Source of the DNA: Nitrosopumilus piranensis
GTDB lineage: Archaea > Thermoproteota > Nitrososphaeria > Nitrososphaerales > Nitrosopumilaceae
Direction: 5' to 3'
Assembly: GCF_000875775.1 (NCBI RefSeq)
Contig: NZ_CP010868.1
Span: 1,623,707 to 1,687,706, forward strand
Length of the DNA: 64,000 nucleotides
The position numbers and the translations under genes are program-made. Below the pieces are notes generated by a model. The model ran no database searches. It was not told the DNA's origin and saw only the letters and a list, made by a program, of their open reading frames with translations. Below are positions 44,874 to 47,109 of the stretch, piece by piece; the stretch's first letter is position 1, and the number at the start of each line of letters is the position of its first letter.

Positions 44874-45347
44874 TTAGTCTATATCATTTACTTGAAAAGT
44901 GATTGGAAGATAAGTCATTCCTTGTTCACTTCTAAAAGATATTTTCCAAGTACCAAAAAACTCACAATCAGAACATTCTTCTAAATCACTAGAAGATACA
45001 GGGGTAAAGTAGTGATTAACAGCATCTTTTGATCCATCATATTGTAATGTGTGATGTATTTTTCCATCAGGACGAATAAAATCTATTTTTCCTTTGGAAT
45101 CTAATGGGATTTGATCTCCAATTAGAAATACAGTATCATCAACACCATAAGTTCCATCTAAAATGGCAAATGGACCTGAGTACAGATTATTAGAATACAA
45201 GTTATCATTTTCAGAATCATCAAAATGACTCATAGAATTTACAGGATTTGATGTAAAATCTGAACTATCCAAAACAAACGTAATCAATACTGCAATACCA
45301 ATAACAATTGGAAGCCCATAGATGATTTTCGGAATTTGTATGATCAA
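44874..45347 (-). CDS. Membrane-anchored extracytoplasmic protein, end of the Hsp20 operon
   Basis: 157 residues from a TTG that overlaps the stop of the 42-aa zinc gene (TTGA). One hydrophobic helix covers residues about 9-26 (IIYGLPIVIGIAVLITFVL), followed by a Ser/Asp/Asn-rich linker. The outer beta domain ('VFLIGDQIPLDSKGKIDFI') carries the pair 'EECSDCEF' (two Cys) that may bind metal. It ends 4 bp from the valS stop, convergent. The overlap suggests it belongs to the leftward Hsp20 microprotein operon. Confidence 0.7.
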   Translation of the reverse strand: MIIQIPKIIYGLPIVIGIAVLITFVLDSSDFTSNPVNSMSHFDDSENDNLYSNNLYSGPFAILDGTYGVDDTVFLIGDQIPLDSKGKIDFIRPDGKIHHTLQYDGSKDAVNHYFTPVSSSDLEECSDCEFFGTWKISFRSEQGMTYLPITFQVNDID

Positions 45348-45472
45348 TTTTTTTTCTCCTTTGCAGAAAATTCAATGCTACACTTCATGCAGCAATATTT
45401 TGCAGATTGATGGTTTTTCAATAAAATAGAATGTTTGCAGTCAATGCCTGTTTTGGAGGCCTGTTCTAACAT
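45344..45472 (-). CDS. 42-aa zinc mini-protein
   Basis: ATG at 45472 overlaps the stop of the 47-aa gene (ATGTTAG), and its stop overlaps the TTG of the next gene. Cysteines appear as 'DCKHS' and 'YCCMKCSIEF', four Cys and several His in a short knuckle. The protein is basic (KEKKN end). The two overlaps on either side strongly suggest translational coupling. Confidence 0.6.
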   Translation of the reverse strand: MLEQASKTGIDCKHSILLKNHQSAKYCCMKCSIEFSAKEKKN

Positions 45473-45609
45473 CTCGAGTTTCCTCCAAAACACTTGTTGC
45501 ACAATATCTCACAGGAGTCAGTAAGGGCAACTCGGACGTTGCTTGACCAGCATTTGTGACACAAGCCTACAAAAGTTGTAATATGTGGGGAGGAAGGGGC
45601 TCCCCACAT
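45466..45609 (-). CDS. 47-aa zinc mini-protein
   Basis: The frame is open to 45660, but an ATG at 45609 gives 47 residues and avoids a long overlap with the previous gene. 'LCHKCWSSNVRVALTDSCEILCNKCFGG' gives CxxC plus a second Cys group, a zinc-ribbon plan. The ATG sits inside an 11-bp hairpin (45582-45610), which could hide the start. If so, expression may depend on unfolding; a TTG near residue 16 would be the other start. Confidence 0.55.
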   Translation of the reverse strand: MWGAPSSPHITTFVGLCHKCWSSNVRVALTDSCEILCNKCFGGNSRC

Positions 45610-45610
45610 A
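45582..45610 (-). promoter_or_regulatory. GC-rich 11-bp hairpin within the Hsp20 operon
   Basis: TATGTGGGGAG (45582-45592) and CTCCCCACATA (45600-45610) are exact inverted repeats with a 7-nt loop. GC runs of this sort are rare in this AT-rich genome. On the minus strand the hairpin contains the ATG of the 47-aa gene. It is not followed by a T-run, so it is not a simple terminator. Confidence 0.75.
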
Positions 45611-45632
45611 GATGAATCGCTTGTCCTTTGAT

Positions 45633-45815
45633 TTATGCAAGAGCTGCGACTGTGTGACATAATACCTCCTCACCGTACATGCATTGACTATGGAATCTGA
45701 CTTCAGTTGGTTGGGCGCAATTAGTGCAAACTAGTTGTAATGCTTGTCTGCAATGTTCACATTGCAGATGCATCTCTAGTTCTCCACCACACTGTCTACA
45801 TAATGTGTCCGGCAT
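45633..45815 (-). CDS. 60-aa zinc mini-protein
   Basis: Cysteine pairs 'LCRQCGGE', 'QCEHCRQA' and 'VCTNCAQP', then 'SQCMYGEEVLCH', make up to two zinc sites, similar to a double zinc ribbon. The start ATG lies inside the last codons of the 60-aa membrane gene (20-bp overlap), after GGGTGAT. The frame is intact, with codon use like its neighbours. Part of the Hsp20 leftward group. Confidence 0.65.
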   Translation of the reverse strand: MPDTLCRQCGGELEMHLQCEHCRQALQLVCTNCAQPTEVRFHSQCMYGEEVLCHTVAALA

Positions 45816-45978
45816 GTTGGATCACCCAATGTGCTATTTTGTAAATGTCACCAGTCAGAAATGCAGTTGCAATTCCTGCACCAATGGGAACACCCATTGC
45901 CATGCAGGCAAGATCAAATGCAACTACTTTTTTGAATGGCGCATGTACCATCTTATTCCATGTACTCATCTTTTGCAT
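45796..45978 (-). CDS. 60-aa small membrane protein
   Basis: ATG at 45978 follows GAGGTGA, a good Shine-Dalgarno. A hydrophobic stretch (residues 20-42, Ala/Gly/Ile-rich: 'FDLACMAMGVPIGAGIATAFLTGDIYK') makes one helix or a hairpin. His residues follow at 49, 55 and 58. It overlaps the next zinc gene by 20 bp. It may recruit the Hsp20 or zinc partners to the membrane; that is speculation. Confidence 0.65.
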   Translation of the reverse strand: MQKMSTWNKMVHAPFKKVVAFDLACMAMGVPIGAGIATAFLTGDIYKIAHWVIQHAGHIM

Positions 45979-45990
45979 TTTGGTTTCACC

Positions 45991-46113
45991 TCAAGGAAAG
46001 TTTCTCCTGCCAAACTTCCATTTGGAAAGAATCTCCTCAGATTCTGAGGAAACTTTTTCCATCGAAGTTTTGACAAATCCTTTGATTTGCTCTATTGACG
46101 AATTTACTTTCAT
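45991..46113 (-). CDS. 40-aa amphipathic mini-protein
   Basis: ATG at 46113 with GGAGGAG about 8 nt upstream; stop at 45991-45993, 13 nt before the next start and overlapping its Shine-Dalgarno. The residues form one charged helix ('SIEQIKGFVKTSMEKVSSESEEILSKWKF') with a basic end. It lies between hsp20 and the membrane mini-gene. No known family. Confidence 0.55.
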   Translation of the reverse strand: MKVNSSIEQIKGFVKTSMEKVSSESEEILSKWKFGRRNFP

Positions 46114-46132
46114 CTTTTTTCTCCTCCGCAAT

Positions 46133-46627
46133 TTACTCCACTGCAATAAGCTTTCCTTGGGGTTGCTCTTTTGCTAGGGATAGAGTTAGTTCTAAAACCC
46201 CATTTGTGTACTTGGCTTTTGCAGAGTTTTCGTCTACTTTTGATGGTAGAGGTATTTTCTTTTCGTACTTTCTGTCGCCATGCTCAGCTGAAAGCATAAC
46301 ATACTTTCCTGATACATTCAACTTGATATCAGACTTTTCAATTCCGGGCATCTCTGATACCAGTTTCAAAGTACGTTCTTTGTCATTGACTGAGACATCA
46401 ACGTATGGATCTCTTACTTTGGAATCAGCAAGAGTACTAGTTGGTTTGGCATTTCCCCACTCAGTGACATGAGGAACTCCATCTTCTCCTATGGTCTTTA
46501 CATAACCATAGTAGTATGGTCCAGCTGTCTGGATATTGGTTGGTTTTGTATATTCGAAGACGTCATCCATGGCAAAAAAAGGACTAGACAATCTTCGAAA
46601 TGCTCTTTCGAATTGGTCATCAAACAT
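46133..46627 (-). CDS. hsp20: Small heat-shock protein (Hsp20/alpha-crystallin)
   Basis: 164 residues. The alpha-crystallin domain is at about 85-160: 'DPYVDVSVNDKERTLKLVSEMPGIEKSDIKL' opens, and 'YTNGVLELTLSL' is the closing strand. The N-terminal 80 residues are a long disordered arm with 'AFRRLSSPFFAMDD'. It binds unfolding proteins in large oligomers as an ATP-independent holdase. It heads a leftward operon of mini-genes. A TATA box lies at 46660-46671 and a palindrome at 46699-46722. Confidence 0.93.
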   Translation of the reverse strand: MFDDQFERAFRRLSSPFFAMDDVFEYTKPTNIQTAGPYYYGYVKTIGEDGVPHVTEWGNAKPTSTLADSKVRDPYVDVSVNDKERTLKLVSEMPGIEKSDIKLNVSGKYVMLSAEHGDRKYEKKIPLPSKVDENSAKAKYTNGVLELTLSLAKEQPQGKLIAVE

Positions 46628-46659
46628 CTTTTAATCACCGGTGTATGTAATAGAGGTTA

Positions 46660-46671
46660 CAAAATATAAAG
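46660..46671 (-). promoter_or_regulatory. TATA box of the Hsp20 operon
   Basis: CTTTATATTTTG on the minus strand (plus 46671-46660) lies about 25 nt before a predicted start of transcription near 46640, with the ATG at 46627 following. Short leader of about 13 nt. Confidence 0.55.
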
Positions 46672-46698: not shown

Positions 46699-46722
46699 AT
46701 ATTGTCATATTTATGACAATAT
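46699..46722. promoter_or_regulatory. Perfect 11-bp palindrome between hsp20 and a zinc-finger gene
   Basis: ATATTGTCATA, 2-nt spacer, TATGACAATAT. It lies about 28 bp upstream of the Hsp20 TATA box and about 30 bp before the zinc-finger gene start. The dyad is the form expected for a dimeric repressor or activator site in archaea. A role as operator is inferred from position and symmetry only. Confidence 0.7.
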
Positions 46723-46750: not shown

Positions 46751-46954
46751 ATGCAAACTGCAATCTTAGAATTTGAAGATCATGCAAGACCAAAATCCCA
46801 AAGACAAGTTACCTATTTTTGTAGATTATGCAGAGAGTATGGAATTAAGACAAGAAAAGCACATCTGCAAAACTTTCACAATGCAAGCAGAGATACTGTA
46901 ACTAAAAGAAGCAATGGAGATTTGGTGGATGTTATCTTTATAGAATCAAGATAG
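46751..46954 (+). CDS. C2H2-like zinc-finger protein, divergent from hsp20
   Basis: 67 residues with ATG after GAGGGA. A zinc finger of the form CxxC...HxxxxH ('FCRLCREYGIKTRKAHLQNFH', residues about 23-43) is followed by basic residues and a hydrophobic end. It could be a small DNA-binding protein and is a candidate for the palindrome next to it. It transcribes away from the Hsp20 operon. Confidence 0.75.
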   Translation: MQTAILEFEDHARPKSQRQVTYFCRLCREYGIKTRKAHLQNFHNASRDTVTKRSNGDLVDVIFIESR

Positions 46955-46998: not shown

Positions 46999-47109
46999 AT
47001 GGCTACAGGTAATGGTTGCAATATGTGTGATTCAGAGCATGATGGTGATTTTTACAGATTTTGTAAATGTAGTTGTCATGCAAGAATTGCAAGAGAGATT
47101 GTAGGATAA
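46999..47109 (+). CDS. 36-aa Cys-rich mini-protein
   Basis: ATG at 46999, stop at 47107-47109. Four cysteines and two histidines ('CNMCDSEH', 'FCKCSCHAR') form a compact zinc site. The codons are typical. It is 45 bp after the C2H2 gene on the same strand, perhaps transcribed with it or from an AAAATATCTC element near 46967. Confidence 0.6.
   Translation: MATGNGCNMCDSEHDGDFYRFCKCSCHARIAREIVG

Follow-up and report, generated by a model that had tools for sequence, protein, structure and literature searches.

We analyzed a 64,000-nucleotide stretch of the genome of the archaeon Nitrosopumilus piranensis (contig NZ_CP010868.1, positions 1,623,707 to 1,687,706; hereafter the window), which belongs to a closed genome of 1,713,078 bases (G000), and focused on a minus-strand gene cluster headed by hsp20, the gene of a small heat-shock protein (sHsp), followed by a row of genes for very small proteins. 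Its components are listed below by window coordinates, where aa denotes amino acids, dN/dS the ratio of nonsynonymous to synonymous substitution rates, and pLDDT the predicted local distance difference test score of an AlphaFold2 (AF2) model.

46133..46627, minus strand: accessory small heat-shock protein Hsp20, 164 aa (NCBIfam NF041800, 1.9e-52, above cut-off; Pfam HSP20, 3.6e-10)
45991..46113, minus strand: A40, 40 aa, with the near-invariant C-terminus SKW(K/R)xGR(R/K)NFP (16-row alignment, hsp20 adjacency, dN/dS 0.30)
45796..45978, minus strand: B60, 60 aa, with one hydrophobic segment and conserved G29, G33, and G35
45633..45815, minus strand: C60, 60-aa CxxC microprotein with eight invariant Cys/His (alignment, dN/dS 0.13, AF2 pLDDT 77)
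45466..45660, minus strand: D64, 64-aa CxxC microprotein, its ATG at 45660 within C60 (dN/dS 0.38)
45344..45472, minus strand: E42, 42-aa CxH...CxxC microprotein (dN/dS 0.39 from 3 pairs)
44874..45347, minus strand: F157, 157 aa, N-terminal membrane helix and beta domain, TTG start (alignment, AF2 model)
46646..46661, minus strand: proximal putative operator TGTAACCTCTATTACA, differing at one position from TGTMAT-N4-ATKACA, directly 3′ of the hsp20 TATA box
46662..46671, minus strand: hsp20 promoter TATA-like box CTTTATATTT (by inspection of the sequence; retained from locus to locus)
46703..46718, no strand assigned: distal putative operator TGTCATATTTATGACA, an exact match, immediately 5′ of the divergent C2H2 gene's TATA-like box
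46751..46954, plus strand: divergent C2H2-type protein (CRLC...HLQNFH), 67 aa (alignment with mean column identity 82%; dN/dS 0.09)

The preliminary description of this DNA had placed frames of 40, 60, 60, 47, and 42 codons behind hsp20 on the minus strand. All of these frames are present, with one correction: the fourth has 64 codons rather than 47, as D64 begins 17 codons earlier, at ATG 45660, and relatives keep the MSHS/MSYS start, which lies 28 nucleotides (nt) inside C60 in all nine in-operon D64 genes. The start/stop overlaps and shared Shine-Dalgarno positions that had also been described are there, and the overlaps are kept in relatives. The A40 stop codon TGA lies within GAGGTGA, the Shine-Dalgarno sequence of the next gene, and the 3′ end of B60 overlaps C60 by 20 nt. 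Further along, C60 and D64 overlap by 28 nt in 9/9 operons having both genes, D64 and E42 by 7 nt (ATGTTAG, the E42 ATG over the D64 stop) in 3/3, and E42 and F157 by 4 nt (TTGA, the F157 TTG start over the E42 stop) in 3/3, the window being counted each time.

The small frames also evolve as proteins. Median NG86 dN/dS was 0.09 for the C2H2 gene, 0.15 for hsp20, 0.30 for A40, 0.20 for B60, 0.13 for C60, 0.38 for D64, 0.39 for E42, and 0.26 for F157, although dS was saturated in many pairs and the E42 value comes from 3 pairs only. Truncated or off-operon copies were dropped from these medians: C60, E42, and B60 from the second G046 copy, C60 also from G080, B60 also from G041 and G067, D64 from G007 and G068, and the frame-broken hsp20 from G096. 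With small-gene medians of 0.13-0.39, not near 1, we conclude that all five small frames and F157 are, on this measure, real genes under purifying selection.

To place the operon among its relatives, the window Hsp20 was used as a query; it matched in 88/95 genus genomes, mostly core Hsp20 near 45-54% identity, and closer accessory Hsp20 proteins were found in 19 selected genomes (20 loci), the most distant at 53% identity. These 20 first-round loci, which were hand-picked from the Hsp20 search rows and are mostly the best ones, comprised A40 at 16, in-operon C60 at 15, D64 at 9 (truncated in G002, G007, and G068; cysteines changed in G022), F157 at 7, in-operon B60 at 4, E42 at 3, and the divergent C2H2 gene at 16. 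The synteny comparison with other Nitrosopumilus genomes that the preliminary description had proposed thus found the order kept at 20 loci in 19 genus genomes: hsp20-A40-(B60)-C60-(D64)-(E42)-(F157) recurs in Nitrosopumilus and partly in four further genera. Three loci of the genome group g19, two genomes of which carry the name Nitrosarchaeum, have hsp20-A40-B60-C60-D64, one of them also with E42; other genera retain hsp20-A40-C60, or hsp20-C60 in group g20. By name, the genomes with A40 relatives (12 loci) are Nitrosopumilus, Nitrosarchaeum, a Marine Group I single-cell genome, a Nitrosopumilales assembly, and one labelled Nitrososphaeraceae. Adding 13 loci to the first 20 gave a set of 33 (G097, on a contig without the promoter, was omitted), which falls into 17 groups by common flanking genes, so that gene order is kept while the neighbourhood changes. 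One degraded locus was also seen (L061, G096), where the accessory hsp20 is frame-broken near codon 28 and neither A40 nor C60 was found behind it.

The head gene itself is a full-length member of the archaeal Hsp20 family NF041800 (177.1 bits against a curated cut-off of 140, residues 4-164). In a tree of Hsp20 proteins (excluding G096, the partly masked G316 C46, and G097), the accessory proteins, G015's excepted, are separated from the core proteins by an 87/73 branch; L038 (G095), labelled core, groups with the accessory G018, and the Nitrosopumilus rows G061 and G082 share a mixed clade (support 92/82) with rows from g19 and g20. By this tree, the window Hsp20 belongs to an accessory clade distinct from the widespread core Hsp20; it differs from the family at large in this placement and in heading a microprotein operon.

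Upstream of hsp20 in relatives there is a TATA-like box, then at once the palindrome TGTMAT-N4-ATKACA, a short leader, and a GGTGA-type Shine-Dalgarno sequence. Among 45 distinct hsp20 promoters, core and accessory together, 36 contain exact sites and 5 more a site with one mismatch (41/45), against means of 0 exact and 0.1 one-mismatch sites per 45 shuffled promoters, the control being mononucleotide shuffling and the pattern having been chosen after part of the same promoters had been viewed. The core hsp20 genes of G000 (G000:C1:251295-251310) and G043 (L239) likewise have the site directly behind the TATA-like box. Paired palindromes with at most one mismatch each were found at 27/33 loci, with a spacing of 57-58 base pairs (bp) at 25/33, and the pair sits between hsp20 and its divergent neighbour, the C2H2 gene or a thermosome gene, the latter in three genomes (G015, L175; G145, L170; G316, L167; 0, 2, and 0 operator mismatches, respectively). 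The 16 other Nitrosopumilus thermosome promoters all have at least 3 mismatches to the operator. A scan of the window at one mismatch returned two sites, both at the hsp20 locus, where 1.5 were expected by chance; it is therefore position and conservation, not rarity, that carry the argument for an operator.

These distributions could also fit a mobile cassette selected for transfer, whose small genes would be cargo that benefits Hsp20 little. The 17 flank groups among 33 loci, the patchy presence (A40 at strong scores in 18/95 genus genomes), and the mixed clade holding the G061 and G082 Hsp20 would agree with such a history. However, neither C60 nor B60 had a confirmed relative among viral contigs, and the paired-operator promoter is retained as part of the unit, which points to function; on this viral-contig and promoter evidence we regard a cassette of this kind as very improbable.

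The divergent C2H2 gene was found in 50/250 family genomes, while 200/250, G043 included, had no match at 1e-4. When it occurs without the accessory hsp20, 10/16 strong cases (E < 1e-30) match a slightly looser palindrome within 102 bp, and five further such promoters have the palindrome with one mismatch in sequence. Its protein has no Pfam match at E 1 and no relative in searches with PDB sequence profiles (best E 0.17). Because its own promoter carries the operator site, we consider the C2H2 protein a candidate regulator or a regulon member. As sole regulator it was rejected, since G043 has no match to it and yet its core hsp20 keeps the operator. On the far side of this gene, a plus-strand frame of 36 aa rich in Cys (46999-47109) was also seen beside the C2H2 gene in G059 and G047 among the 20 loci.

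Heat-shock regulation of this general form is known from other archaea. The only regulators named in the accessible part of a review of archaeal heat shock are Phr and HSR1 (PMC9133787), both of which a Sulfolobus study places in Euryarchaeota (PMC10653856). As that part of the review describes them, the regulons of Phr (Pyrococcus furiosus) and HSR1 (Archaeoglobus fulgidus) resemble the Nitrosopumilaceae arrangement in having hsp20 under a palindromic or start-site-proximal operator and, adjoining hsp20, a regulator candidate with the operator at its own promoter, HSR1 being described within an operon with hsp20 downstream (PMC9133787). The sequences differ: TGTMAT-N4-ATKACA is neither the HSR1 operator (CTAAC-N5-GTTAG) nor that of Phr (TTTA/TGGTAA/AAAA), as these are given there (PMC9133787), and the window hsp20 has as its neighbour a divergent 67-aa C2H2-type protein without Pfam match or PDB relative.

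We do not claim a larger regulon. A degenerate form of the pattern (N4 to N6) gave 7 sites in G000 against 4 for the reversed control. One is at the core hsp20 and one at the window locus; the remaining five comprise two well within genes, one between convergently oriented genes, one with a 5-base spacer 100 bp upstream of a gene, and one with a 6-base spacer. This last palindrome, TGTAATATTTTTATTACA (L235:2726-2743; G000:C1:812225), stands exactly 20 bp upstream of where a ferritin-like gene (Pfam PF00210) starts, is identical in four genomes (L235, L194, L198, and L201), and is a possible oxidative-stress operator.

Among the small genes, A40 is the tightest companion of hsp20. A profile search placed it in 18/95 genus genomes at E < 1e-17 and at 28 places in 27/250 family genomes at E < 1e-6; all 28 clear matches lie directly 3′ of hsp20, and C60 comes next at 23/26 A40 loci whose contig extends far enough. 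The 16-row alignment has eight invariant positions, with SKW(K/R)(F/I)GR(R/K)NFP at the C-terminus of most rows. A DNA pattern of this end matched 19 places in the 95 genus genomes, of which 17 are A40 and the remaining two other genes in G043 and G046, and the reversed pattern had 0 matches. Similar ends occur in other proteins (L179-L184), where KW(R/Q/K)IG(H/R)(R/K)N(F/Y)P ends proteins approximately 90 aa long as well as a shorter one; the approximately 90-aa protein of other genomes closes with FRL(D/E)KW(R/Q)IG(H/R)RNFP.

The other small proteins are less exclusive. None of the small proteins has a Pfam or NCBIfam family above cut-off. B60, with a KD19 maximum of 1.86 over its one hydrophobic segment, stands in the operon at 4/20 first-round loci and the three g19 loci; it is a multi-copy gene (four in G000) and elsewhere is often divergent from a C60-like gene. 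Its paralogues (G000:C1:1345755, 915587, and 898046; L072, L076, and L077) are often divergent from a C60-like microprotein gene and followed by two proteins, one of 326 aa and one of 267 aa, the latter looking by eye like a winged-helix regulator. C60 has the invariant ligand candidates C6, C9, C19, C22, C30, C33, H42, and C45 and forms a family found in 120/250 order genomes, with 1 to 8 matches in each. Its best PDB profile match had E 0.011, and its fold comparison returned mostly zinc-ribbon proteins with a best Z of only 2.9, for which reason the fold was left without assignment. A virus origin of C60 and B60 was rejected, as neither had a confirmed relative in viral contigs. In two genomes (L056:10156-10293 and L064:6856-7002; G046 and G080), a 45-48-aa MWFEQ gene precedes C60 away from the hsp20 operon, and its product is weakly similar to the N-terminus of Hsp20 (phmmer, E 0.0025 at best to an Hsp20). 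F157, which had been called secreted, is better termed membrane-anchored because of its N-terminal membrane helix. Its AF2 model (pLDDT 57; helix 11-27, strands 72-153) matched many chains bearing an alpha-2-macroglobulin MG2 domain at Z 6.2-7.3 over 78-85 residues, below 8, and we suggest with moderate confidence that its beta domain may resemble MG2 modules.

C60, D64, and E42 are probably Cys/His, zinc-binding adaptor microproteins. By description, they resemble the C(P)XCG zinc-finger micro-proteins of Haloferax volcanii, which in the accessible parts of two reports are single-domain proteins of <70 aa with paired Cys motifs and many members per genome (PMC6562870, PMC11241148). The size is the same; C60 has an invariant CRxCG, its further pairs being CxxC without the following Gly, and D64 and E42 have CxxC pairs. 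The window microproteins differ in lying in a conserved sHsp operon with overlapping frames. A Cys motif alone is no proof of zinc, because 5/14 purified Haloferax proteins were zinc-free according to the part of the report available (PMC11241148). The presence of three Cys/His-rich proteins within one transcript unit could also indicate a metal-stress unit, with C60, D64, and E42 as buffers of zinc or copper, B60 and F157 working at the membrane, Hsp20 guarding metal-damaged proteins, and metal, not heat, as the inducer. However, the operator is common to core hsp20 and accessory thermosomes, and in our reading of the alignment the eight C60 ligands look structural, unlike a thiol-rich store. 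We therefore consider a metal-stress unit improbable.

A stronger competitor is that these are co-regulated stress microproteins with independent functions, carried on the hsp20 transcript for timing and not touching Hsp20. C60 and B60 are multi-copy families with other contexts, the gene content behind A40 and C60 is variable, and the Haloferax zinc-finger micro-proteins have, in the accessible part of their description, separate, condition-dependent phenotypes (PMC6562870). Against this, none of the 28 clear A40 matches lies away from hsp20, and the common order persists across changing neighbourhoods. We hold independent functions to be possible, though on the unlikely side.

We lean, with modest confidence, toward reading the locus as a stress-inducible accessory sHsp operon of Nitrosopumilaceae whose microproteins act as sHsp accessories. 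A chaperone-linked unit, as the preliminary description had proposed, is well supported by A40 behind hsp20 at 28/28 matches, C60 at 23/26, a thermosome neighbour in three genomes, and the sHsp operator at the promoter. In the mechanism we propose, a single promoter would drive hsp20 and the small genes as one polycistron, and a putative dyad-binding regulator on TGTMAT-N4-ATKACA behind the TATA box would keep RNA polymerase blocked until heat, oxidant, or metal stress causes proteins to misfold. A repressor acting in this way would suit the site because the operator lies directly behind the TATA box, as the accessible part of the review reports for Phr (PMC9133787). Induction by protein damage is suggested because the same site marks core hsp20 and accessory thermosomes, and the same putative regulator would act at core hsp20. 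The polycistron would be translated by coupling, through overlapping frames and stop codons covered by Shine-Dalgarno sequences, and synthesis of the small proteins would thereby accompany that of Hsp20. A40 would then serve as a dedicated partner of the accessory Hsp20, probably through its invariant C-terminal SKWxxGRRNFP, C60, D64, and E42 might act as Cys/His (probably zinc) adaptors, and B60 and F157 may carry the response to the membrane and the outer surface. Among the protein links, A40 as an Hsp20 partner appears the best supported, and it is here that a physical partnership seems most credible. The case is weaker for C60 and B60, whose larger families also stand in other genomic settings, and weakest for D64, E42, and F157, which many relatives have lost or carry in broken form.

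Several observations weigh against a stress-inducible accessory sHsp operon. The operon is missing from most genomes of the genus, and it is dispensable in the lineage, as G043 (1,645,259 bases) does without the accessory hsp20, a full A40, and the C2H2 gene while its core hsp20 and operator are retained. D64, E42, and F157 are absent or broken in many operons, and the operon tail erodes readily. C60 and B60 are not dedicated to hsp20, since their families also occur away from it in the same genomes. The proximal operator (at most one mismatch) is missing at 4/33 loci (the second G046 copy, G012, G292, and G336). A40, previously described as amphipathic, does not exceed its own shuffles (406/1000 scored as high for the window protein), and an amphipathic helix was rejected for it. 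The sequences themselves establish the genes, their order, the geometry of the couplings, the shared operator, and the separate Hsp20 clade, whereas repression, stress induction, metal binding, and every protein partnership are inferred.

The head gene is an ordinary archaeal Hsp20; what is new is the composition of the operon and its operator. Searches of the open-access literature (subscription papers being outside the scope) turned up neither this operon nor a heat-shock operator for these archaea, and hsp20 is unmentioned in the accessible part of PMC7785015. The operator and operon together point to a stress-control system undescribed in marine ammonia-oxidizing archaea. In a bolder and doubtful version, A40 would be a dedicated sHsp partner, the first such in archaea, which docks on its own Hsp20 by the invariant SKWxxGRRNFP, tunes it, and is made together with metal-binding and membrane microproteins, while TGTMAT-N4-ATKACA would define the first sHsp regulon of ammonia-oxidizing archaea, with the C2H2 protein as one DNA-binding regulator. 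A 16-bp site at nearly every examined Nitrosopumilaceae hsp20 promoter is a direct bait for the regulator in very abundant marine archaea, and the locus offers a compact test bed for the coupled translation of overlapping microproteins. Small heat-shock proteins are usually regarded as self-sufficient holdases; if A40 binds Hsp20, they can have encoded micro-partners.

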